Below, in pieces: positions 12,120 to 45,151 of a stretch of DNA of 64,000 nt. The translations under genes and the position numbers were made by a program. The stretch's first letter is position 1. Each line of letters starts with the position of its first letter. Source of the DNA: Terriglobia bacterium (GTDB lineage Bacteria; Acidobacteriota; Terriglobia; Bryobacterales; UBA6623); NCBI GenBank assembly GCA_009838515.1, contig VXRL01000081.1, positions 25,838 through 89,837 of the forward strand. Reading direction: 5' to 3'. Under the pieces are notes generated by a model. It was not told the DNA's origin and searched no databases. It worked only from the letters and a program-made list of their open reading frames with translations.

Positions 12120-14018
12120 TCAAGCTGGCAGGGCGAATGCCTGCAATGCGTCCGTGAACTTGTGGCTGAGCTTGTTCCCGCCACCGGCCGCGATGACTAC
12201 GAACTGCCGCCCGGAGTCGGGGCCTTCGTATGTCATCGGGTTGGCATGGCCGCTGCCGTCGAGTTCGGCCTCCCACAGCACGCTGCCTGTATCTGCGTCA
12301 AACGCCCGGAACCGGCGGTCGTTACTCCCTGCGATAAACAGCAGGCCTCCCGCTGTGACGATCGGCCCTCCCATGTTGATCGTGCCTGTGACTGGCACGC
12401 CGCGGGCAGTCAGCTCGGGGACTTCGCCGAGCGGGACTTGCCAGTCATAGTCGCCTGTCGCGAGATTGATCGAGCTCAGAACTCCCCAGGGCGGCTGTTG
12501 GCACGGCCAGAGCGTCTGCGGATCCCAGAACTTGTTCTGGCGCACGTCGATTCGCTTGCGGCGGTAGGTCACTGATTCGCTCAAGCCTTCGCGCGTGATG
12601 ATCTCGCGACCGACCGGGCGGCCAGGCTGCTCCGCCCTTCGGGCCTCCATCACGACGATGTCCGCGAGGTTGGTCCCGTTGATAAAGAAGCGGCCGGTCT
12701 TCGGATCGAAACAGCCTCCGCCCCATTCCCCGCCGCCTTGGTTGCACGGAAAGATGATCACGCCTCGTTCCGTGCCCGGGTGGTACAGCGGCGCGATCTG
12801 GTAGCGCGCGGCAAGTTCCTTGGCCCACCGATGGTGCTCGGGCGTTACCGTGGACAGTTCGTCTGGAGACATCGATTGCCTCACGAACGGGGCTGGCTTG
12901 GCCGGAACGGGCTGCGTCGCTGCCGGCTGCTCGCCGGGAGCGCAGTGTTGCGGAACGGGAACTTCGTCGATCTCAAACAGCGGCTCGCCAGTCTCGCGGT
13001 GCAGCACGTACGCAAAGCCCTGCTTGCTGGTCTGCACCACGGCCGGGATCGTGCCGCCGTCGCGCTGGATGTCGCAGAGCACCGGCTGGGCGCACAGGTC
13101 GTAGTCCCAGATGTCGTGGTGGGTGGCTTGGAAGTGCCAGACGTACTCCCCGCTCGAGGCATCTAACGCCAGCACGCAGTTGGAGTACAGGTTGTCTCCG
13201 GCGCGATCGGCCCCGTAATAGTCATAGGTCGGCGAATCGGTAGGCACGAACAATAGGCCGCGTTCGATGTCCGCACTGAGTGGAGGCCAGGCGACTCCGC
13301 CACGGCGTTGCTTCCAAGAGTCCCCTTCCCATGTCTGCTTGGCCGACCTGTCATCCGGCGGCACTTTGTGCCTGGTCCAGGCCAGCTTGCCGCTGCGGAC
13401 ATCGAAGGCTCGCAGGGTCGGTACGTTTCCTCCGATGATTGCCAAGTCGCCCGCGATCGTCGGCGGAGAAGTCAGTCGTGCGCCGACGCTTACCGTCCCG
13501 CTGTCGCCGAAATCGGCGCAGGGCTTCCCGGTCGATGGATCCAGCGCGATGAGGCGCCCGTCCAGCGTGCCGTGCAGCAGCCGCCGCTCAGAGCCACTGC
13601 GCCAGAGGCTAACGCCGCGATTGGCCCAGAGGTTGTAGCGCTTGGCCAGATCGAGGCCCGGATCGAACGCCCAGCGCTCGCTCCCGGTCTCAGGGTCTAG
13701 CGCTAGCACTCGGTTGAACGGCGTGGCGACGTACAGCAAGCCGTCTGCCATCAATGGCGTGCACTCGTACGCGGTCCGGGTGGGGTTGCGAGAGCCGTCG
13801 CTGACCTCCCCGCAGCGATGTGTCCACGCCAATTGGAGTTCAGCGACATTGGCGCGGTGGATCTGGGCCAGCGGACTGTACCGCGTCCCGCCAGCTTCGC
13901 GGCCCCACTCGGGCCACTCGCCGGCGGTAGACCGGCCGCAGGAAGTGGTCAGCGAACCTAGTGCGATGGCACTTCCGAGGCTTGCGCTGAAATCGCGGCG
14001 GGTGAGCGGTGCGGCCAT
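12120..14018 (-). CDS. PQQ-dependent dehydrogenase (quinoprotein), Tat-exported
   Basis: Tat-like signal LTRRDFSASLGSAIALGSLTTSC; PQQ propeller repeats (LDPETGSERWAFDP, GDNLYSNCVLALDASSGEYVWHFQATHHDIWDYDL). Confidence 0.9.
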   Translation of the reverse strand: MAAPLTRRDFSASLGSAIALGSLTTSCGRSTAGEWPEWGREAGGTRYSPLAQIHRANVAELQLAWTHRCGEVSDGSRNPTRTAYECTPLMADGLLYVATPFNRVLALDPETGSERWAFDPGLDLAKRYNLWANRGVSLWRSGSERRLLHGTLDGRLIALDPSTGKPCADFGDSGTVSVGARLTSPPTIAGDLAIIGGNVPTLRAFDVRSGKLAWTRHKVPPDDRSAKQTWEGDSWKQRRGGVAWPPLSADIERGLLFVPTDSPTYDYYGADRAGDNLYSNCVLALDASSGEYVWHFQATHHDIWDYDLCAQPVLCDIQRDGGTIPAVVQTSKQGFAYVLHRETGEPLFEIDEVPVPQHCAPGEQPAATQPVPAKPAPFVRQSMSPDELSTVTPEHHRWAKELAARYQIAPLYHPGTERGVIIFPCNQGGGEWGGGCFDPKTGRFFINGTNLADIVVMEARRAEQPGRPVGREIITREGLSESVTYRRKRIDVRQNKFWDPQTLWPCQQPPWGVLSSINLATGDYDWQVPLGEVPELTARGVPVTGTINMGGPIVTAGGLLFIAGSNDRRFRAFDADTGSVLWEAELDGSGHANPMTYEGPDSGRQFVVIAAGGGNKLSHKFTDALQAFALPA

Positions 14019-33274: not shown

Positions 33275-34750
33275 CTAGGCAGCGCCCCATCTGGGAACTC
33301 GGGCACATCGCAGCAAGGCATCAACGTCAAGGTCTGATGCGAGCGCGTCGGCAACTTCGTCAAGCGCTTTATCGACGGCAGTTGCGTAGCGAATCGAGGA
33401 ATCGGGCCTTGCGCCGAGCCTTTTAAGCCACTCGCGTCGGTATCTGTCGTTCGCCAGCAAGCCGTGCAGATAGGTACCTTCGATCCGTCCGTCCTCGCTG
33501 CGGGCCCCGTCCGGACCGCCGTCCATATGCAGCAGTGGATTCTGCAACTGAGGACCAGCCGTCCGCCCGGCATGGATCTCATAGCCGCAAACCGGTATCC
33601 CGGAGACCGCGCATCGACCTTGGGCCTGCCTCACGGTCTTTTGAGCCACCATCGTCGTGGAAACATCGAGCAAACCCAATCCGGCCCCGGCAGCTGCTGC
33701 GCCGTCCACGCCACTGGGGTCGCGAACGTTGTGTCCCAGCATCTGGAATCCGCCGCATATTCCCAGCACATAGCCGCCATTCCTAGCGTGCGAGATTACG
33801 TCGTGGTGCCAGCCCTGAGATCGCAGAAACTTGAGTTCCGAAACCGTTGACTTGGTGCCGCACAGGATGATCGCATCGGCATCGCGAGGAATCGCGCTTC
33901 CCGGATGCACAAACGAGAAGTCCACTTCGGGCTCAAGGCGCAGCGCATCCAAATCGTCGGAATTGGCGATCCGTGACAGCACGGGCGCAACAACGCGCAG
34001 GTGACCGCCCGGGTGACGCCGCTCCGATCTCAATGACGTCGCATCTTCGGCGGGAAGCGTAGCGGCCGACTCGAGCCAGCGGACCATGCCGAAGCAGTGC
34101 CAACCTGTTCGTTGACGCACGACGGACAGCCCGTCCTCGAACAGCCCCGGGTCGCCCCGGAACTTGTTGACGATGAATCCGCAGACCTGCTGCCGGTCTT
34201 CGTCGCCCAGAACGGCATGGGTGCCGACGAGAGCGGCTATCACTCCGCCACGATCGATGTCACCGACGATGCAGACTGGCACGTCAGCCTTTGTTGCGAA
34301 GCCCATGTTGGCGATATCTCCGGGGCGTAGATTGACCTCAGCTGGGCTTCCGGCCCCTTCTACCACCAGCAGGTCGTACTCTCGAGCCAGCCTTTCCAGC
34401 GACTCCTTGATGGCTGGGAGAAGCGTCTTGCTGTAGCCGCGAAATCCGCTCGCGCCCAGCGAGCCGGAGGGGTGCCCGTGGACGATGACTTGGGACACAC
34501 GGTCCGCTTGCGGCTTGAGCAGGACCGGGTTGAAGTCCGTGCAAGGCTCTATCCCGGCGGCCATTGCTTGGAGCGCCTGTGCCCTGCCGATTTCTCCGCC
34601 TCCCGGACAGACGGCGGCTTGGTTGGACATGTTCTGAGGCTTGAAGGGGGCTGCGTGAATGCCCCGTTTGCGGGCGAGTCGGCATAGCCCCGCCACGATT
34701 AGGGACTTGCCGACATCGCTGCCGGTCCCTTGGATCATGATGGCCTTCAT
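33275..34750 (-). CDS. cobQ: cobyric acid synthase
   Basis: MKAIMIQGTGSDVGKSLIVAGLCRLARKRGIHAAPFKPQNMSNQAAV; GAT triad Cys in YVLGICGGFQMLG; YEIHAGRT. Confidence 0.94.
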   Translation of the reverse strand: MKAIMIQGTGSDVGKSLIVAGLCRLARKRGIHAAPFKPQNMSNQAAVCPGGGEIGRAQALQAMAAGIEPCTDFNPVLLKPQADRVSQVIVHGHPSGSLGASGFRGYSKTLLPAIKESLERLAREYDLLVVEGAGSPAEVNLRPGDIANMGFATKADVPVCIVGDIDRGGVIAALVGTHAVLGDEDRQQVCGFIVNKFRGDPGLFEDGLSVVRQRTGWHCFGMVRWLESAATLPAEDATSLRSERRHPGGHLRVVAPVLSRIANSDDLDALRLEPEVDFSFVHPGSAIPRDADAIILCGTKSTVSELKFLRSQGWHHDVISHARNGGYVLGICGGFQMLGHNVRDPSGVDGAAAAGAGLGLLDVSTTMVAQKTVRQAQGRCAVSGIPVCGYEIHAGRTAGPQLQNPLLHMDGGPDGARSEDGRIEGTYLHGLLANDRYRREWLKRLGARPDSSIRYATAVDKALDEVADALASDLDVDALLRCARVPRWGAA

Positions 34751-34995
34751 CGCCACCGTTGTCGCAGCCTTCCGCGTCGCGACTCGCGCTCGCGTCCCGC
34801 GTGCTCGGGGAACATGCGGGCCATTCCCGAACAGACGAGCAGGTTCATCGAGCCGTCGTCTCAGCAATCCCCAGATTCGCGGGCCTGGACGCAGCGGAGG
34901 CTGTGAGCGGCGCGGTGATGGGTGCGCCGAATCTGCTCGGATGCATTGCAGGCCCCTGCCGCATCGAATGTCACCCGATGACCATGACCCCGACC

Positions 34996-35811
34996 CTAGC
35001 GGGAGCCCGCGCCTCTCGCTCGCACGCCTTCAGACCGGGCCGCTAGGCGGTGGAAGACAAGCGTCTCGATGCCGTTGGCTGGGCGAAGGCGCTCAACCCT
35101 CACGCCGAACACGGGCTCTATCAGGTCGTCGCGCACCACGTCAGCAACCGTCCCGAACGCTTGGAGTCGACCTGCGTTCATCAGCGCGACTCGATCCGCC
35201 CACCGCAGCACGGCGTTGAGATCGTGCAATGCCACCGCGACGGCCTTGCCATCATCGGCAAGCTCCTGAAGCAGCTGGAGCGTTTCAAGCGAGTGGTCGA
35301 TGTCCAAGCTGGCCGTTGGCTCGTCTAGCAAGATCACCTTGGCCTCCGTAGCCAAGCTGCGTGCAATCAGAACTCGTTGGCGCTCGCCACCGGACAGTTC
35401 GTTTACGAGGCGGCGCTCCAAGTGCGCGACATCCGCTCGCGCCAGCGCGGCGTCAACGGCCTCAACGTCGGCGCTGCCGAGCAGGTCGAATCGGCCAACA
35501 TGCGGATAGCGCCCCATGCTGACAACATCCCGAACCGTGAACGCAAAATCGATCCGCGTGTCTTGCGGGACAAAGGTGATCTGGCGCGCTATTTCCTGCC
35601 GCGGCACACGGGCTAGGGTGTCCCCGTCCAGTTCCGCCCGCCCGTCGGTGGGTCTCCAGAGCCCGGCGAGCAGGCGGAGCACCGTTGACTTGCCGGAGCC
35701 GTTGGGTCCCACCACGGCCGTCACGCTCTGGGACTCGACCGAGAGCGAGACATCCCGGACTAGGGAGCGGCCGCCGATCTCGATGCCGGCATTGCACAAG
35801 GAAAGCCTCAA
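34996..35811 (-). CDS. ABC transporter ATP-binding protein, FecE/BtuD type (probable TTG start)
   Basis: Walker A GPNGSGKSTVLRLLAG, signature LSGGERQRVLIARSLA, Walker B VILLDEPTASLD; TTG overlaps the permease stop codon. Confidence 0.9.
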   Translation of the reverse strand: MRLSLCNAGIEIGGRSLVRDVSLSVESQSVTAVVGPNGSGKSTVLRLLAGLWRPTDGRAELDGDTLARVPRQEIARQITFVPQDTRIDFAFTVRDVVSMGRYPHVGRFDLLGSADVEAVDAALARADVAHLERRLVNELSGGERQRVLIARSLATEAKVILLDEPTASLDIDHSLETLQLLQELADDGKAVAVALHDLNAVLRWADRVALMNAGRLQAFGTVADVVRDDLIEPVFGVRVERLRPANGIETLVFHRLAARSEGVRARGAGSR

Positions 35812-36914
35812 AAGTATCCGATCTCCTTGCGTCGCTGCCGTAGCAGGTAGAGGAAAAATGGTGCCCCAAATGCCGCAGTCACGATGCCCAAGCGGATCTC
35901 GCCGGGAGGGTTGGCGGTCCGCGCCAACAGGTCGCATGCGATCACGAAAGTGGCGCCCGTCACGACGCTTCCCGCCAGCAGCATGCGGTGCGAAGGGCCT
36001 AGGACCAGTCGCAGCGCATGAGGCACGACGAGGCCGACGAAGCCGACCACTCCGCTCACTGAGACTGCGGACGCTGTCAGCAGTGCTGCCGCGACAAGAA
36101 CCGCTCTCCTGACCGGCTCCACGTCCACGCCGAGCGCAGAGGCCGTCTCTTCTCCGAGCAGCAGCAGGTCGAGGTCGCGCGAATACCAGAACGCGACCAA
36201 CAAGCCCAGAACCACGAACGGCGCGCAGATCAAGACATGCGTCCAAGTCCGACTGTCAAGCCCGCCCATCAGCCAGAACACAATTTCTCCCGCGATTTGC
36301 CAGTCGACGAAGCTGAGCGAAATGAGTAGAGACGAGCAGGCAGTGATCATGGCCCCCAGTGCGATGCCTGCAAGCAGCAGGGTGGCCACCGGTGCCCTTC
36401 CTGACTGGCTTGCGATCAAGTAGACAGTAAACAGGGCCAAGAATGCGCCAATGAATGCAGTCAATGGCAGCCACAGCGCCGAACTCGCCGTCAATCCGGT
36501 GATGAACGCGACCACCGCGCCCAACGCCGCTCCTTGACTCACTCCGATGATGCTGGATTCGGCCAGCGGGTTGCGAAACACGCCCTGCAACTGGGTCCCC
36601 GCAACAGCCAAGGCGGCGCCGACGAGGCCCGCGACAATGACCCGGGGCGTGCGGATCAACCAGACGATCGCTTGGTCGGCGTCGGAAACGGAGCCAGGGT
36701 CGATCCAGCCGGCCGGCAGGACCTTGGCCGCGATAACGCGAGCGACCACCTCCCAAGCGACCGCTGTGCTGCCGATCGCCACCCCCGCCACGGCCACGAC
36801 GACGAGCAGGGCCGATACGACGGGAAACACAACAAATGCCGGTGATCGCCACCTTCGACCACCTGGCGTGTCCGCGCCCAGACGTTCTCCTTCAGGAGAT
36901 GGGTTCGCCGTCAC
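35808..36914 (-). CDS. FecCD/BtuC-family ABC transporter permease
   Basis: RTPRVIVAGLVGAALAVAGTQLQGVFRNPLAESSIIGVSQGAALGAV; GVVGFVGLVVPHALRLVLGPSHR. Confidence 0.94.
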   Translation of the reverse strand: MTANPSPEGERLGADTPGGRRWRSPAFVVFPVVSALLVVVAVAGVAIGSTAVAWEVVARVIAAKVLPAGWIDPGSVSDADQAIVWLIRTPRVIVAGLVGAALAVAGTQLQGVFRNPLAESSIIGVSQGAALGAVVAFITGLTASSALWLPLTAFIGAFLALFTVYLIASQSGRAPVATLLLAGIALGAMITACSSLLISLSFVDWQIAGEIVFWLMGGLDSRTWTHVLICAPFVVLGLLVAFWYSRDLDLLLLGEETASALGVDVEPVRRAVLVAAALLTASAVSVSGVVGFVGLVVPHALRLVLGPSHRMLLAGSVVTGATFVIACDLLARTANPPGEIRLGIVTAAFGAPFFLYLLRQRRKEIGYF

Positions 36915-37891
36915 ATGCCCTCCCCAAAGAGCCCGCTGGCGATCGCTTCCATCAGACCAACCGCGTGCTGTGACATGGCCGTGAACTGGCGACTCTCCAC
37001 GAGCAGAATCTGCCCGTTGCGCCCTGCCTTGGTGACAGCGATGCCCGCGTCGGCAAGCAGCTGGCCCCGGACTTGGTCAGAGGCCCCCCGGTCGGCTGGA
37101 GCCACGATCCAGTCCGGGTCCCATGCAGCGACTTGCTCGCTGCTGATGTCGGCGTACTGCCCAAGGCCTTGCTCAGAGGCAACATTGATTGCCCCGAGTG
37201 CGGTCAGTATGTGATCGAACAGCGAGCCATGCCCCAAGGTGCTCCCGTAGGTCGAATAGGGCAACACGCGTGGTGCGTGCGCGCTGGGCGGCCTGCGCGC
37301 CTTGGCCTGGTCAACTCTCTCGCGAAGACGACGTATCTCCAGCTCAGCTGCGGAGTCATCGCCTGTGACAAATCCGACAGCGGCGATTCCCTGGGCGATC
37401 TGTTCGAAGTCCGCAAAGACTGTGCGCAAGCGAAACGTCGGAATGCCTGCATGCCGGAGTACATCCTCGAAATCTGCTCTGGCCCGGTCGGACAGCAGCA
37501 TCAGGTCGGGACTCGCGCGAAGCACGGCCTCCAAGTCGGAAGTGTCCGCCATGTGCATCCGCGCGGCGATCTCGTGTACAAAGCTGTAGCCCGGGTCCGT
37601 GGCGTATGGGCTCACCGCCACAATGCGGTCCAGATCGGTGATGGCAAACAAGAAATGGTCGATTGAAAGGGCCTGAGAGCCGATGGCTTGCGGCGGCGCT
37701 TCGATCAAGAGCTCCCGGCCGCTGGTGTCAACCGCGCGCCGCGGGAACTTCCCTGCAGAACCTAAGTCAGACAGGCGCGACCTAGATGTGAGTGCGCCCG
37801 GTAGCGCACCGTCGAATCGTAGTGCTACCGCGAACAGAACCGCACATAGGGCGATCCCAAGTGCCGCGACGATCCGGTATGGGTGTCTCAT
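36911..37891 (-). CDS. ABC transporter substrate-binding protein, BtuF-like (paralogue 1)
   Basis: RRAVDTSGRELLIEAPPQAIGSQALSIDHFLFAITDLDRIVAVSPYA; ADISSEQVAAWDPDWIV. Confidence 0.86.
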   Translation of the reverse strand: MRHPYRIVAALGIALCAVLFAVALRFDGALPGALTSRSRLSDLGSAGKFPRRAVDTSGRELLIEAPPQAIGSQALSIDHFLFAITDLDRIVAVSPYATDPGYSFVHEIAARMHMADTSDLEAVLRASPDLMLLSDRARADFEDVLRHAGIPTFRLRTVFADFEQIAQGIAAVGFVTGDDSAAELEIRRLRERVDQAKARRPPSAHAPRVLPYSTYGSTLGHGSLFDHILTALGAINVASEQGLGQYADISSEQVAAWDPDWIVAPADRGASDQVRGQLLADAGIAVTKAGRNGQILLVESRQFTAMSQHAVGLMEAIASGLFGEGM

Positions 37892-38892
37892 GCTGGGTCC
37901 GGGTAGAGAGCGACCGCCAACCGCTCGGCTAGGTCGATCACTCGGTGAGAAGTGGACAGGAAGATATGCGGCGGCAGTACCAAGATGCGGCCGTTGCGCC
38001 CTGCCTCCGTCACGGCGAAAGCGGGATCGCGCAAGAGAGTCGTCTGGTCACCGGAACCGTCGCCGGGCAGGGCCCCGGTCACGATCCAATCCGGGTTCCA
38101 GCGCGCCACCTGCTCGCTGGAAACACGGCCGTAGGAGACCATCCCTTGCTCTGCAGCTACGTTCGTGGCGCCCAGGGCGCTGACGATGTCGTGGAATATC
38201 GTCTCCGTCCCGTAACTGTATGACAGGGACCGGTCATAGCCCAACACGCGCGGCCCACGTCCCGGCGCAGCAGGACCACGATCTAGCGCGCGCTGGAATC
38301 GCAACTCGATAGATGCCGCGAGCTCCTCGGCACGAGCGTCCTCGCCGGTGATGTATCCGAGCTTCCGAATCAGTTCCGACAGCCCGGACATGGTGCGCAC
38401 GGTGTCGCCGACGCGGTAGATCGGCGCATCGCCGTGCCGCACTAGGTCCAGCCACTCGGCACGAGCGTGCAATCCCGCGAACACAAGGTCCGGCAGCAGG
38501 CTCAGCACTACCTCGGAGCTCTCGCTGGAGGGCAGCCCCAGTCGCGCCGCCGTCGCGGCCACGTCACTGTAGCGCCGGTCGAGGGAGTACCGGCTCACCG
38601 CCACGATCCGGTCCCTGTCCAGGATGGACAACAGCAAACCGTCGACGGTGATCGAGTTCGAGGCGATCCTTTCGGGGCGAGTCGCGATCGTGATCTGGTG
38701 GCCGCTGTCGTCCGTCACCGTTCGCGGGAACGGATCGCCGCCGTCGGCGAGCCGAGCCGGCGCCTCGGCGGGAACCCTGGCCGGGCCAAATCCGTTGAGC
38801 GTGACTGTCGCGACCCATGCCGAGATAGCCGCCGCGGCTACCACGGCCGTTCCAGCGATGGCGACTCGCGCCTCCGAACTCACAACGGGCAT
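37888..38892 (-). CDS. ABC transporter substrate-binding protein, BtuF-like (paralogue 2)
   Basis: RTVTDDSGHQITIATRPERIASNSITVDGLLLSILDRDRIVAVSRYS; GRVSSEQVARWNPDWIV. Confidence 0.86.
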   Translation of the reverse strand: MPVVSSEARVAIAGTAVVAAAAISAWVATVTLNGFGPARVPAEAPARLADGGDPFPRTVTDDSGHQITIATRPERIASNSITVDGLLLSILDRDRIVAVSRYSLDRRYSDVAATAARLGLPSSESSEVVLSLLPDLVFAGLHARAEWLDLVRHGDAPIYRVGDTVRTMSGLSELIRKLGYITGEDARAEELAASIELRFQRALDRGPAAPGRGPRVLGYDRSLSYSYGTETIFHDIVSALGATNVAAEQGMVSYGRVSSEQVARWNPDWIVTGALPGDGSGDQTTLLRDPAFAVTEAGRNGRILVLPPHIFLSTSHRVIDLAERLAVALYPDPA

Positions 38893-38957
38893 CTCTCTAC
38901 GGCTGCTCCGGGCTTGCCACCGGACAGAATGAACGACATCTCCGCGACCGCTGCCTG

Positions 38958-41498
38958 CTAGAAGTTGAGGCGCATTCCCCCGATGACCCAAAGTCCGGGC
39001 GAGCCGAAGCCGTTTTCGTAGTAGTCGTTGTTGAAAACGTTCTCGGCCTTTCCGTACACTTCCAAAGTCCTCGAGTCCGACAGCGGCAGGTCGTACCGGA
39101 CGACCAGATCAGCCTTGACCGGGCCGGAAAACACTAGCCGCCGTCCTTGGGCACCGTATGGAGAGAGCACGTAGTCGCTCAACGCGAACAGGTCGAACGT
39201 AACGTTGACGCGCTTGCCCAGCCACTGTGTAGCCGCCATGTAGAGCGACTGATTCGAGATTCCGGGAACGCTGAAGTAGTCGGGTCCGATGGTGGGGGTG
39301 CGCGAGTCCGAGTTGGTGAAGGTATACGCGCCGCGAAGGCTGGTACTCGACGTCGGAGAAATCTGTGTGCCCAGCTCGAATCCCCGGGCGATCCCTCCTC
39401 CGGACGTTCGGTACCCTCCAAAGCGCCCGAAGATGTCGTTGGCCGGGAAATTGGCGAAGTCGAAGATGACAGTTTCCTGGAGGTTGGTGTAGAAGAACGT
39501 ACCGCTCAGGCGCACCCTTGAGCCGTATAGCCACTGGTCGACACCACCGTCGACTGCAACCGACCGCTCCGGTCCAAGACGCGGGTCGCCCCAGTAGTTG
39601 AATCCGCCCGAATAGGACGAAAAAGATCCACCGAAGCGCTCGTACATCGACGGGGCGCGGAACGCATTCCCCGCATGGGCGCGCAGCTTGGTCTGGGACG
39701 CCTCGATGAAGTATGCGGCCGCCACATCGCCGGTGTAGGCGTTGCCGGGATTCGCGACGGGAGTTGTCTCGTATGGACTCGTCGCGCCTCCGAAGCGGGG
39801 CGATCCCGGATCGAAGCGCTGCAGCCGGCCCGAAAGGGAGACGAGCAGCCTGCCATCCAGCATCCGAATTTGGTCTTGCCCGAAGACGGCATGACTGATT
39901 TGGTCAATCTGCACTTGGCTTGCCGTGGGTTGCGGACTCTCGTCGGTGTTGAGATTGGCGAACTTCTCGGCTTCAAGCTCATACCCCAAGCTCAACAGGT
40001 TGTGAGCGCCCACCCGTTGGTCCGTGCGAGCTTGCAGCAGGTGCGTCTGGCCGTTGAAGCGGCTGTCGTTGCTGAACACCGGATCGTACAGCCCGGGCCC
40101 GGCAGGCCCGTCTTGGTACGAGCGCTTGGTCGCGACGTGCTGGTAGGCGATTCGGTAGGAGCTCTCGGCGGTTAGTTGGTGTCGAAGCGTAACCGCCGAA
40201 GCCGAGAAAGAAGACGATCGCCGGTTATCGGGATCGATCGCGCCGGGAACGAAGGTAGCATTGCCTGCTGAGAACGGCAGCCTCTGCTCGAACAGATCGA
40301 GTTGGTCGAGGGGCAGCGCACGTGCGGGCACATTGCCGGAATCAGGGAAATTGGCCACGATCTCGGCAGGGAACGCCGGGCTCTCGGTGAGGCTTAGGAA
40401 CGCGTCTGCCCCCCACACGCGGCCCGTGAGCGATAGCTTCTGGCTCAGGGCATACTTGCCAAAGCCTCTCGCGGTCGTGTTGCGAGACGGGCTGCGGCCT
40501 CGGTATCCGCCCGTCACGTTCAGATGAGACCCGCCGCCACTGTATACAAAGCGGTCGTTGGCCAGGCCGCCGCCGACCCTGGCGACGCCGCGCAGCATGC
40601 CGAGCCCACCCCCCTCGGTGCGCAGCTCGCCATGCGTGCCGCCGCCGCCCTGGGCGGAGGTGACGTTCATCACCCCGCCGATGGCATGGGAGCCATAGAG
40701 CGAGGATCCCGAGCCCCTCACGAACTCGACTCGATCCGTGCCCACCAAATTCATGTCACTGTAGAAGGCGGACGCATCCCCTTGGGTGCTGGCGGCATCG
40801 CGGAATCGCAGGCCATCGATCAAGACTGCTGTGTCATGGTTCCGCAGTCCGCGCGTCTGCACCGTGGTGAAACTCCCCGGACCGCGCAACTGCCTTATGC
40901 GGACTCCGGGGATTGCACGGAGCGCCTCCGAGAGAGCGAATTCGTTCCGGTCGGCGATCTGGAGTGAGTCGACGGCATCAAGTGCCTTCGCGACCTCCCG
41001 CTGGGTTAGAGGAGTGCTTGAGGCGGTCACTACGACCTCCACCCGCCCGCCCGAAACGGCGAGCTGCAGGTCCTGCTCGGCTTCTCCCTCAACCGCGATC
41101 TGCCTGTAGCCTGCTAGCGCCTCGTCGGCGGATTCCCCTGTTAGCAGATACTCTCCATCAGGCACGTTTGGGAAGGAATAGCGGCCATCGTCCATGCTCG
41201 AGACGCTGTGAATCTGGCCACTGTTACGGTCAAACAAGCGCACTTGCGCACCTGCGAGAACCTCGCCGCTGGGGGCAGAAATCAAGCCGTGCAAGCTGGC
41301 TGCGCCAAGAGCGCCTGCCAGGATCGTCGCAAGGGCGATTGCTGAAACGGCGATCGACCGCAGCAAGGCGCTGGGTATCCAATCTGCCGCCTCGCCGCCA
41401 CTCGCTCGCCGTGTGCTGGAACAGCGGCTAGATGCTTGGCCGCTGCTGGACCGCTCCGGGCTACGACCGGCGCGATGCTCAAATGGGTTATTCATTGG
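38958..41498 (-). CDS. TonB-dependent receptor with N-terminal carboxypeptidase-like regulatory domain, BtuB-like by context
   Basis: Plug VRIRQLRGPGSFTTVQTRGLRNHDTAVLIDGLRFRDAASTQG, beta-barrel, C-terminal aromatic ending GGMRLNF; preceded by cobalamin riboswitch. Confidence 0.9.
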   Translation of the reverse strand, partial: PMNNPFEHRAGRSPERSSSGQASSRCSSTRRASGGEAADWIPSALLRSIAVSAIALATILAGALGAASLHGLISAPSGEVLAGAQVRLFDRNSGQIHSVSSMDDGRYSFPNVPDGEYLLTGESADEALAGYRQIAVEGEAEQDLQLAVSGGRVEVVVTASSTPLTQREVAKALDAVDSLQIADRNEFALSEALRAIPGVRIRQLRGPGSFTTVQTRGLRNHDTAVLIDGLRFRDAASTQGDASAFYSDMNLVGTDRVEFVRGSGSSLYGSHAIGGVMNVTSAQGGGGTHGELRTEGGGLGMLRGVARVGGGLANDRFVYSGGGSHLNVTGGYRGRSPSRNTTARGFGKYALSQKLSLTGRVWGADAFLSLTESPAFPAEIVANFPDSGNVPARALPLDQLDLFEQRLPFSAGNATFVPGAIDPDNRRSSSFSASAVTLRHQLTAESSYRIAYQHVATKRSYQDGPAGPGLYDPVFSNDSRFNGQTHLLQARTDQRVGAHNLLSLGYELEAEKFANLNTDESPQPTASQVQIDQISHAVFGQDQIRMLDGRLLVSLSGRLQRFDPGSPRFGGATSPYETTPVANPGNAYTGDVAAAYFIEASQTKLRAHAGNAFRAPSMYERFGGSFSSYSGGFNYWGDPRLGPERSVAVDGGVDQWLYGSRVRLSGTFFYTNLQETVIFDFANFPANDIFGRFGGYRTSGGGIARGFELGTQISPTSSTSLRGAYTFTNSDSRTPTIGPDYFSVPGISNQSLYMAATQWLGKRVNVTFDLFALSDYVLSPYGAQGRRLVFSGPVKADLVVRYDLPLSDSRTLEVYGKAENVFNNDYYENGFGSPGLWVIGGMRLNF

Positions 41499-41709
41499 GT
41501 TGCCTCCTGGTCCGTCTCCGCGGACGCCAACAAGGCGCACCCTTCCGGGAGCCCGCAATCGCGGGCCCTGCGCTAGGGCCGGGATTCGAGAGAGGCTCGC
41601 TGGGACAACTTGGCAGAGCCTGATGCAGGCAGACTAGGGCCTGACTCTAGCGACAAGTATGTTTCCAGATCGCTCATCCGTACCTCGCGGAAGTGTGCGC
41701 TTCACACGC

Positions 41710-42220: not shown

Positions 42221-45151
42221 TCAATCGTCGCGAGGCAGCGGACGCACCCGGATGTTGCGCCACTTTACGATCAAGGGCTGGCTCGTCGTGATGCCCCTGC
42301 CGGCATGAACGGGCCGGGAGATGTCGTTCTCATTGATGCCGTGCACCTGAAGGCCGATGAAGCCTTGCTTGTGGGTCTTGTATACCTCCTCATTGACGAG
42401 GTCCTCGATCATGGCGCCGTTCACCCAAGTCTGGATGCGCGGCCCTTTCGCTACGATCCGAAGCTTGTTCCAGCCGTCCGCATGGTAGTGGCGGTGGCCC
42501 GCGTCGATCTTCTCTTGTGAGGACATCCACCCGATGCCCAGCGCTTCCCCGTACAGCACGCCGGTCGTGGGCTGGCCCGGGTAGTATCGCCGAATTTCCA
42601 TTTGCGGCCCATTCACTCTGCCCGCTCTTCCCGCCGTCCTCAGCGCGGCGTCCCCGGCCGCCGCCATGGGCCGGATCTTCGTTCGGATCTGAATGCCGGA
42701 GTTCGTGATCGGATCCAGGTAGGTTTCGGCCTCGAGCTCGAAGTCGTCAAACTGCCGCAGTGAGCACAGGAACGAGTTCATCCTCGCGCTGCCCTCCACG
42801 CTCCGCCCCACGATGGCACCGTTCTCGACGGTGAAGTTGTGAAAGCCGTTCATGTGCACCCACCCGTCCAGCGTCTTGCCGTCGAAAAGCTCGATCCAGT
42901 CCGAACCCGCTGCCGCACGCTCCTCTTCCTCGGGCAATGCGAACGCGATGATCGAGTCTCCTGACTTGGTGCCGTTCTTGCCGCTGCCGCCCGCCGCGAT
43001 CACCACATACTGCTTGCCTTCGGCTTGGTAAACGCTGGGCGTGGCGTACCCCCCGGCCGGCAGCTGGTACTCCCAGAGAACTCGGCCGGAGTGCTTTTCG
43101 AAGGCGCGGATTTTCTCGTCGGCCGTGGCGGCCACGAAGATAACGCCCCCGGCCGTGGCGACTACACCGCCGAAGTTCATCGTGCCGGTATCGTGGATGC
43201 CCTTGGCCACCAGCTCGGGATACTCGCCCAGCGGCACCTTCCAGCGGATCTTGCCGGTCAGCAGGTCGATCGCATTGAGCGTTCCCCAAGGGGGCGCAAT
43301 CGCTGGCACCCCGTGAGGATCCGTGAACACGGAGTAGCCGTCGATCGAATACCGGTGCGCACGTGACCCGCCGCTGCTGGCGGCCGTGTCCGGCGCGCTG
43401 TCGATGTAGGCGGCGATGGCATCCAGTTCATGCGCTCCGAACTGCGGGTAGGCGGGCATGTTGTTGCGCCCTTCGGAAATAGCGGCGTCTAACTCTTCGC
43501 GGTCCAAGCCGAGATTGACAAGGCTGGTACCCGGCTCGGACGTCCCGCGCCGGTCAGAGCCGTGGCAGGCCATGCAGTGGGTTTCGTAGATCTGTCGCCC
43601 CGTCTGGGCCATGGTCTGCTCATCGCGCGAGTCGCTTCCGTATGCAGGTCGCAGCCTCCCGATGGTCGGGGCCTCGTTGACGTTGACGTAGAGCGTGTTC
43701 AGCTGTGGGTCAAAGGACCCTCCGTTCCATTGGGAGCCGCCGAGATGGCCCGGCAGGGTCAGGGTTCCTTGCAGGCTCGGAGGCGTGTAGATCGAACCGG
43801 ACCGGTACTTCCTGAACTCCCGCAAGGCATGCTCGCGGGCCTCCGGCGTGATGTTCGTCAGATCCGCTTCCGTGATCCCGATGCGCCCCAGCGGCGGGGG
43901 GAGGATGGGAAACGGCTGAGTCGGCCACGTCTCCTCGCCTGGCACGTCCGAGCTCGGCACTGGCAGGTCATGAACCGGGAAGATCGGCTCGCCGGTATCG
44001 CGGTCTAGCACGAATGTGAGGCCCATCTTGGTTAGCTGGACGACAGCATCGCGCTCGTTGCCTCCAGATCGGAGAGTGACTAGGATCGGCGCCGCCGGCA
44101 GGTCGTAGTCCCAGATGTCGTGGCGAACGATTTGGTAATGCCACTTGCGTTCGCCGGTTGCGGCATCCAGCGCGATCACGCTGTTGGCGAACAGGTTCTT
44201 TCCCTTCCGGAATGCCCCGTAGAAGTCGTCCGTGACAGCGCCGGTGCCCACGAAAGCCCAGCCGCGTTCCTCATCAATCGTGACGCCGCCCCAAGCATTG
44301 CCGCCTCCGAACGTTTCCCCCTCCGGCCATGACCATGTGTCGTGTCCGAACTCCCCTGGGCGAGGGATCGTGTGGAAGGCCCACTCGAGCTTGCCGGTCA
44401 CCGCGTCGAACGCCCGGATCGGCCCGGGCGAGGAACCGTAGGACTCGTTCACCCTGCACCCGAGGATGAGCAGGTTCTTGTAAACCGCCCCCGGCGTGGT
44501 CATCTGCAGCGCGACTCCGTCCGGATCGACGCCGAGATTCTCCCGGAGGTCGATGTAGCCCCGGTTCCCAAACGACCGAATCAGATCTCCGGACCGCGCG
44601 TCAATGGCGTACGCTCGGTCGCGAACGAAGTGGAAGATCCTCTCGCCCTGGGCTCCTTCCCAGTACGTGACCCCGCGGTTCCGCTGCCGGATGACCGTGC
44701 TGTTGTTGTGCACGGAAGGGTCGAACAGCCAAATGCGCTCCCCGGTCGTGGCGTCCAAGGCGACCGCGTTCAGGCTTGGCGTGACGGCGTAGAGCACCCC
44801 ATCGACAACCAGCGGATTCGAGTACATCGTGGAGCGCTCCGCAGCGTCCCCTGCCCGGTACTCCCAAGCGGGCTGGAGGCGGTGCACGTTCGTTGCGTTG
44901 ATCTGGGCTAGCGGCGAATACTGACCCCTGGTCTGGTCCCCGAGGTATACCGGCCAATCCCAGTTCCCGAAAGCCTGAACGGTTTCGCTGAGATCATGCC
45001 GAACATTGGTGGTCTGTGCCGCGGCTGTCACAGCAAAGACCGGGAGAGCCGCCAGACACAATAGACGGCTCGCCAACGACCCGAGCGGGGTCACGTCGCC
45101 AACAAGCTTGGCCAGTGCCCGACGGCCTGGAGCACCACAGTGAAATCGCAT
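42221..45151 (-). CDS. PQQ-dependent dehydrogenase with internal c-type cytochrome and C-terminal DUF1080 (3-keto-disaccharide hydrolase) domain
   Basis: PQQ propeller (WPVYLGDQTRGQYSPLAQINATNVHRLQPAWEYRAGD), CMACH heme motif at about 43562-43576, then DUF1080 from about 42905 (WIELFDGKTLDGWVHMNGFHNFTVENGAIVGRS...FDDFELEAETYLDPITNSGIQIRTKI...GYIGLQVHG-type ending). Confidence 0.92.
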   Translation of the reverse strand: MRFHCGAPGRRALAKLVGDVTPLGSLASRLLCLAALPVFAVTAAAQTTNVRHDLSETVQAFGNWDWPVYLGDQTRGQYSPLAQINATNVHRLQPAWEYRAGDAAERSTMYSNPLVVDGVLYAVTPSLNAVALDATTGERIWLFDPSVHNNSTVIRQRNRGVTYWEGAQGERIFHFVRDRAYAIDARSGDLIRSFGNRGYIDLRENLGVDPDGVALQMTTPGAVYKNLLILGCRVNESYGSSPGPIRAFDAVTGKLEWAFHTIPRPGEFGHDTWSWPEGETFGGGNAWGGVTIDEERGWAFVGTGAVTDDFYGAFRKGKNLFANSVIALDAATGERKWHYQIVRHDIWDYDLPAAPILVTLRSGGNERDAVVQLTKMGLTFVLDRDTGEPIFPVHDLPVPSSDVPGEETWPTQPFPILPPPLGRIGITEADLTNITPEAREHALREFRKYRSGSIYTPPSLQGTLTLPGHLGGSQWNGGSFDPQLNTLYVNVNEAPTIGRLRPAYGSDSRDEQTMAQTGRQIYETHCMACHGSDRRGTSEPGTSLVNLGLDREELDAAISEGRNNMPAYPQFGAHELDAIAAYIDSAPDTAASSGGSRAHRYSIDGYSVFTDPHGVPAIAPPWGTLNAIDLLTGKIRWKVPLGEYPELVAKGIHDTGTMNFGGVVATAGGVIFVAATADEKIRAFEKHSGRVLWEYQLPAGGYATPSVYQAEGKQYVVIAAGGSGKNGTKSGDSIIAFALPEEEERAAAGSDWIELFDGKTLDGWVHMNGFHNFTVENGAIVGRSVEGSARMNSFLCSLRQFDDFELEAETYLDPITNSGIQIRTKIRPMAAAGDAALRTAGRAGRVNGPQMEIRRYYPGQPTTGVLYGEALGIGWMSSQEKIDAGHRHYHADGWNKLRIVAKGPRIQTWVNGAMIEDLVNEEVYKTHKQGFIGLQVHGINENDISRPVHAGRGITTSQPLIVKWRNIRVRPLPRDD

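Follow-up and report, generated by a model that had tools for sequence, protein, structure and literature searches.

In an uncultured Acidobacteria species, a gene on the reverse strand at 42221..45151 of the window, the whole 64-kb stretch of DNA that was analysed, encodes a PQQ dehydrogenase, a cytochrome c and a DUF1080 domain in one chain, and this fusion is confirmed to be a real protein and no artefact. What would such a protein do? We propose, tentatively and at a little under even chances, an exported quinohemoprotein in which the PQQ part oxidises a glycoside at a ring hydroxyl and the DUF1080 domain then cleaves the keto product.

Layout of the fused protein

One uninterrupted open frame runs from 45304 to 42221 on the reverse strand, as do all features of the gene given below. 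Its start codon is the ATG at 45151, the position at which the genus relatives also begin, giving 976 amino acids and a stop. Residues 1-46 (45014..45151) resemble a signal peptide, with the hydrophobic stretch LLCLAALPVFAVTAAAQ, and judged by this N-terminus the protein would be exported, with a probable location in the periplasm. The first part of the PQQ propeller (residues 66-515, 43607..44956) matches PF01011 well above threshold (643.5 bits against a Pfam cut-off of 26.7, E 5e-193). The cytochrome sits inside the propeller: residues 515-583 (43403..43609) match PF13442 (Cytochrome_CBB3, E 3.7e-13) and PF00034 (E 2.6e-6), and the propeller resumes at about residue 600 and runs to about 742 (42926..43354), with PF13360 (PQQ_2) at 623-717 and 65-98% identity to fused relatives. 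The C-terminus (residues 751-970, 42242..42901) is a full-length DUF1080, or 3keto-disac_hyd, domain, matched over positions 1-187 of the 187 in PF06439 (118.8 bits against a cut-off of 26.8, E 3.8e-34). An earlier note on this DNA had given the same limits and list of domains, with which Pfam agrees. Its placing of DUF1080 last stands, whereas the cytochrome has to be redrawn as an insertion in the propeller. Its description of an exported propeller with a c-type heme site fits the apparently intact PQQ and metal ligands and the CMACH motif, and its complete DUF1080 domain is borne out by the unbroken profile match and a low dN/dS.

As expected of a c-type cytochrome, the protein contains exactly one CXXCH, the heme-binding CMACH at residues 526-530 (43562..43576), together with MPAY, in which Met565 is likely the distal heme ligand. 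Of the 24 fused proteins, 23 have both CXXCH and the distal Met; the remaining one, from Opitutales (L044:6042-8597), is a natural fusion without any cytochrome. CcmF, a cytochrome c maturation protein for heme attachment, is encoded in the window. A second PQQ-dehydrogenase-like gene of 632 aa, without DUF1080, lies there at 12120-14018 on the reverse strand. The model of the full-length fused protein (pLDDT 84, pTM 0.87) finds its best PDB matches among quinohemoprotein and methanol/alcohol dehydrogenases, some of them described as DON-detoxifying.

Distribution, origin and neighbours of the fusion

The same single-ORF fusion was found in nine of the 11 genus genomes searched, at 80-100% identity over nearly the full length, and one of these copies lies on a single-contig chromosome of 6.19 Mb. 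Other relatives in that search match only the propeller and cytochrome. A wider scan with the DUF1080 domain as query, one genome per species and peptide patterns from four sequences gave at least 80 loci, in at least 23 of which PQQ and DUF1080 share a single frame. Among the matches listed, the hosts are Bryobacterales and Luteitalea (Acidobacteriota), Opitutaceae/Opitutales (Verrucomicrobiota), Chryseolinea and another Bacteroidota, one Planctomycetota and one Gemmatimonadota MAG, a spread of at least five phyla; further fusions may exist beyond these matches. Two more candidate loci (L042, L043) are interrupted by contig ends. A full-length match occurs in only 3 of 396 evenly drawn Acidobacteriota genomes, the source genome counted. 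The architecture is therefore rare and patchy in this phylum, and the earlier note's concern that it might be common falls away. Two copies call for separate mention. A 5.2-kb contig binned as Gemmatimonadetes (L026:1-5236) carries a protein about 88% identical to that of the window and is likely mis-binned, and an in-frame stop at L076:7287-7289 splits a fused gene between propeller and cytochrome, by sequencing error or decay.

Maximal support (100/100) unites the 24 fused rows as one clade in the propeller tree, and in the DUF1080-domain tree the fused rows again fall in one clade (100/99), which includes the stand-alone domain of L036. Because each tree gives a single fused clade, the fusion would have arisen once within this sample and been inherited or transferred as a unit. 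The stand-alone member (L036:7848-8618) adjoins a second DUF1080 gene and probably reflects loss of the dehydrogenase part. Against eight relatives, dN/dS is 0.06-0.13 for the first propeller part, 0.05-0.16 for DUF1080 and 0.12-0.28 for the cytochrome, values that are rough for the more distant pairs, where dS exceeds 1. All domains are under purifying selection, which acts as strongly on the DUF1080 half as on the propeller. Chance, an assembly chimera or a frameshift is excluded by the same layout in nine genus copies and five phyla, a pseudogene or drifting domain by dN/dS, and repeated independent fusion, for the sampled set, by both trees.

The neighbours of the gene in the window are a DUF2911 protein, a PQQ_2 propeller protein, a sulfatase and a B12-type import cluster. 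They offer no clue to an operon at this locus, and their association with the fused gene is not conserved in other phyla. On the reverse strand at 33275-41558 of the window, a TonB receptor, two periplasmic binding proteins, a FecCD permease, an ABC ATPase and a CobB/CobQ-like amidotransferase stand in a row, an arrangement suggestive of cobalamin uptake and salvage. A gene for ThuA, a family associated with the use of 3-keto sugars, lies close or next to the fused gene at three loci (L031, L042, L045). Such neighbour counts are weak evidence, since ThuA genes are frequent in these bacteria (10 matches in the source genome). Directly upstream of the fused gene lie a DUF6807 gene in two Bacteroidota (L034, L035) and a TRAP transporter in L076, and a sugar-type ABC transporter is upstream in L040. 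L030 has an outer-membrane beta-barrel gene upstream and GntR, enolase-type dehydratase and DHDPS-type aldolase genes downstream. The neighbourhoods thus point to sugars, with hints of sugar acids, and show no conserved operon among the loci compared. A UPF0261 gene followed by a PEP-hydrolase-like gene lies near the fused gene in two Acidobacteriota (L016:10273-12868, L030:50-2332).

Stand-alone DUF1080 genes occur near a PQQ dehydrogenase twice in the source genome (about 3 kb away on C19, about 0.4 kb on C1), against about 0.7 cases expected by a rough hand estimate, and this linkage is not significant. In a Woeseiaceae MAG (L069:5479-8585) stand-alone DUF1080 and PQQ dehydrogenase genes stand head to head, their frames about 24 bases apart. 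The source genome also encodes a ThuA-DUF1080 fusion, with both matches in one open frame of 552 aa (C42:24133-25488), and another neighbouring ThuA/DUF1080 pair (C54:46168-47636). A search of PHROGs returned nothing.

Proposed reaction and its alternatives

How might the fused protein work? A sugar, either a small glycoside or an oligosaccharide, would enter the periplasm, where PQQ acquired from the environment would oxidise a ring hydroxyl and take two electrons from the sugar. These electrons would pass from PQQ to the inserted heme c and on to a periplasmic carrier of the respiratory chain, and NAD would not be used. The keto product would be handed to the protein's own DUF1080 domain, which would split the glycosidic bond; beta-elimination, whether or not accompanied by hydration, is the most likely mechanism. 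We infer the activity itself, catalysis by DUF1080 and the transfer of substrate between the domains. The position oxidised would most likely be C3, and C3 oxidation followed by cleavage in one chain is plausible.

The DUF1080 domain is modelled with confidence as a PF06439-type fold (pLDDT 90.2). In the fold search it aligns best with the first domain of BT3469 (TM 0.76, 32% identity), and further PF06439 structures rank next, including 3-keto-2-hydroxy-glucal hydratase (8v31, 8tda) and 3-keto-glycoside eliminase/hydratase (8rr2, 9fbe). PF06439 chemistry is now annotated as elimination/hydration rather than plain hydrolysis, and of the "hydrolase" named in the earlier note the family holds, but the related structures are annotated as eliminase/hydratase. 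In the alignment the E-x-Q of annotated DUF1080 enzymes corresponds to Q-x-E both in the fused clade, where it reads P-Q-x-E, and more widely among BT3469-like proteins. The fused clade also has Val, Ile or Met at the Asp of QDHG (LQ[VIM]HG), with NSG and Q-x-H kept. Compared as sequence motifs, the E-x-Q pair and QDHG of the 8rr2/8v31/BT2157-type eliminase/hydratases are absent from the fused clade. Structure prediction, suggested earlier as a check of the active site, thus returned the fold, yet with the polar motif of the annotated enzymes altered. The clade has marks of its own, an Arg854-Arg855 pair and His771 (42839..42841), which is His in 24/24 fused proteins and mostly another residue in stand-alone homologues.

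Could the domain bind sugars instead of cleaving them? It would then be a carbohydrate-binding module that anchors the dehydrogenase on a polysaccharide, while PQQ oxidises sugars and the heme exports the electrons. The altered motif favours this reading, as does the existence of CcPDH, a tested cytochrome-PQQ-CBM protein of the same plan that binds cellulose (PMC4332668), and CBM66 and lectins, which share the concanavalin-like fold, are likewise among the fold matches. However, the first 17 matches in that search are PF06439 chains (E 1.4e-17 to 1.4e-9), the first CBM66 chain follows at E 9.9e-9, and CBM66 and lectins rank after the PF06439 structures. Moreover, H771, N817, R823, Q850, E852, Q935 and H937 show little or no variation across the fused clade, and the domain's dN/dS matches the low values of the propeller. 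We consider a binding module unlikely. The more general suspicion that the C-terminus is only a laminin-G/concanavalin-like module is likewise answered by the PF06439 score and by the rank of that fold ahead of CBM66 and lectins.

Which hydroxyl would the propeller oxidise? Arg159, Glu236, Asn285, Trp287, Asp348 and Lys375 are invariant in 24/24 aligned fused proteins, and Asn490 is present in 23/24. Their counterparts in E. coli Gcd are Arg266 for Arg159, Trp404 for Trp287, Asp466 for Asp348, Lys493 for Lys375 and Asn607 for Asn490. By this alignment Asp348 (44108..44110) is the catalytic base and Lys375 (44027..44029) a PQQ contact, and both are also found in 13/13 non-fused relatives. In our own reading, Glu236 and Asn285 would occupy the metal-ligand positions expected from methanol-type enzymes. 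The best subfamily match of the propeller is TIGR03074, the glucose/quinate/shikimate family. E. coli Gcd oxidises C1, as the glucose/quinate dehydrogenase family often does. Some PQQ enzymes are able to oxidise a secondary ring alcohol, among them quinate dehydrogenase and those that convert DON to its 3-keto form. With the propeller nearest to the glucose/quinate/shikimate family, C3 is a candidate site of oxidation.

Under C1 oxidation, aldoses or disaccharides would yield lactones or aldonates as with Gcd, DUF1080 would act on or bind the glycoside, and the products would go to sugar-acid catabolism. The subfamily match and the five shared Gcd residues agree with this, and so do the GntR, enolase-type dehydratase, DHDPS and TRAP genes at L030 and L076, which suit sugar acids rather than 3-keto sugars and to that extent count against a 3-keto product. 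But such a neighbourhood is seen in two loci only. The TIGR03074 score is 492.7 against a curated cut-off of 832.65, with the match beginning at profile position 139 of 783, the N-terminal membrane domain of that family and of Gcd is absent, and the position of Gcd His262 is Arg, Gln or Lys in the fused proteins. To our knowledge no DUF1080 enzyme acts on aldonates, which also counts against C1 oxidation. We regard it as improbable.

Where does the PQQ come from? PqqC is absent from all 11 genus genomes, and the same search detects it in two relatives. The source genome has no PqqE above the cut-off, only weak radical-SAM matches of a kind seen in all controls too; the PqqE search being non-discriminating, PqqC in relatives replaced it as the marker of PQQ synthesis. 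Because the genus lacks PqqC, any PQQ used by the fused protein must be imported or scavenged, and the genus seems to rely on PQQ that other organisms make. The missing synthesis genes and the existence of an acidobacterial "empty quinoprotein" family (TIGR04528) might suggest that the propeller is idle, a scaffold or binding protein, which we think very unlikely: it scores 236.9 against the TIGR04528 cut-off of 650, the ligands expected for PQQ and metal do not vary, the source genome retains about 20 PQQ-dehydrogenase-like genes, and PQQ import by non-producers is documented (PMC12124388). As its scores fall under both cut-offs, the fused protein belongs to neither TIGR03074 nor TIGR04528.

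Ring oxidation followed by cleavage is thus supported by the domains, the invariant PQQ ligands, the heme ligands in 23/24, the low dN/dS and one clade per tree, by the match of the DUF1080 model to 3-keto eliminase/hydratase structures, and by a multi-gene counterpart in Caulobacter, ThuA near three loci and CcmF in the window. It is weakened by Q-x-E in place of E-x-Q and Val/Ile/Met for the Asp of QDHG, by a nearest structure, BT3469, that carries no assigned function in the data consulted, and by a propeller nearest to a family whose E. coli member Gcd is a C1 oxidiser. Coupling of the two steps is not obligatory everywhere, since L036 keeps the DUF1080 part alone and L044 has no heme.

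That glycosides can be broken down by way of 3-keto intermediates instead of by hydrolysis was recognised recently, and not all oxidising partners of this route are known. The conserved fusion names a candidate partner, a PQQ-heme dehydrogenase, for one DUF1080 clade, and it would allow both steps, oxidation and cleavage, to be assayed jointly from one gene. Somewhat short of an even chance, in our judgement, is the whole scheme of oxidative sugar cleavage in one chain, in which PQQ makes a ring-keto glycoside, DUF1080 splits it by elimination/hydration and heme feeds respiration, all on scavenged PQQ and across five phyla. If true, it would offer a route other than glycoside hydrolases, independent of NAD and outside the cytoplasm, and it would tie sugar cleavage to PQQ supply between community members.

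Comparison with known systems

None of the protein's domains is new by itself, and the propeller-cytochrome core is commonplace among Acidobacteriota. Our literature search, with subscription papers mostly outside its scope, found no paper that treats DUF1080 together with PQQ, and in the literature so searched we found no description of the three-part fusion, its single origin in the sample or its five-phylum spread. The fused protein shares the 8-bladed PQQ propeller and the five matched site residues with TIGR03074 and E. coli Gcd. It is 35% identical to Gcd, from which it differs by the missing membrane domain, the cytochrome within the propeller and the DUF1080 domain at the C-terminus. 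Type II quinohemoprotein alcohol dehydrogenases (1kb0, 1kv9, 1yiq), the best sequence and structure matches, likewise join a propeller and heme c in one exported chain; however, their cytochrome follows the propeller at the C-terminus, a layout not seen in the fused protein, and they have no DUF1080. The non-fused acidobacterial PQQ-cytochrome proteins (e.g. L013, L018, L104) share about 46-53% identity with the fused protein. In those checked (L013, L018, L019) the cytochrome is inserted at the same point, but the non-fused proteins stop before DUF1080 and fall outside the fused clade.

The DUF1080 half shares the PF06439 fold, NSG and Q-x-H-G with the eliminase/hydratases (8rr2, 9fbe, 8v31, 8tda) and BT2157 (3osd), and differs from them in Q-x-E for E-x-Q and Q[VIM]HG for QDHG, at 16-20% identity in the fold alignment. 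CcPDH of Coprinopsis cinerea, with the order cytochrome b, AA12 PQQ domain and CBM1 (PMC4332668), also unites a cytochrome, a PQQ sugar dehydrogenase and a sugar-recognising domain in one chain, but it is fungal, uses heme b and a different PQQ catalytic family, and carries CBM1 instead of DUF1080. In Caulobacter, fitness data tie the periplasmic DUF1080 protein CCNA_01705 to the membrane lactose 3-dehydrogenase LacABC; the two are proposed to act in series, with the cleavage step proposed from the same data (PMC9007349). There too a disaccharide is oxidised in the periplasm and a DUF1080 protein follows, but the parts are encoded by separate genes and LacABC is a different, membrane-bound dehydrogenase.
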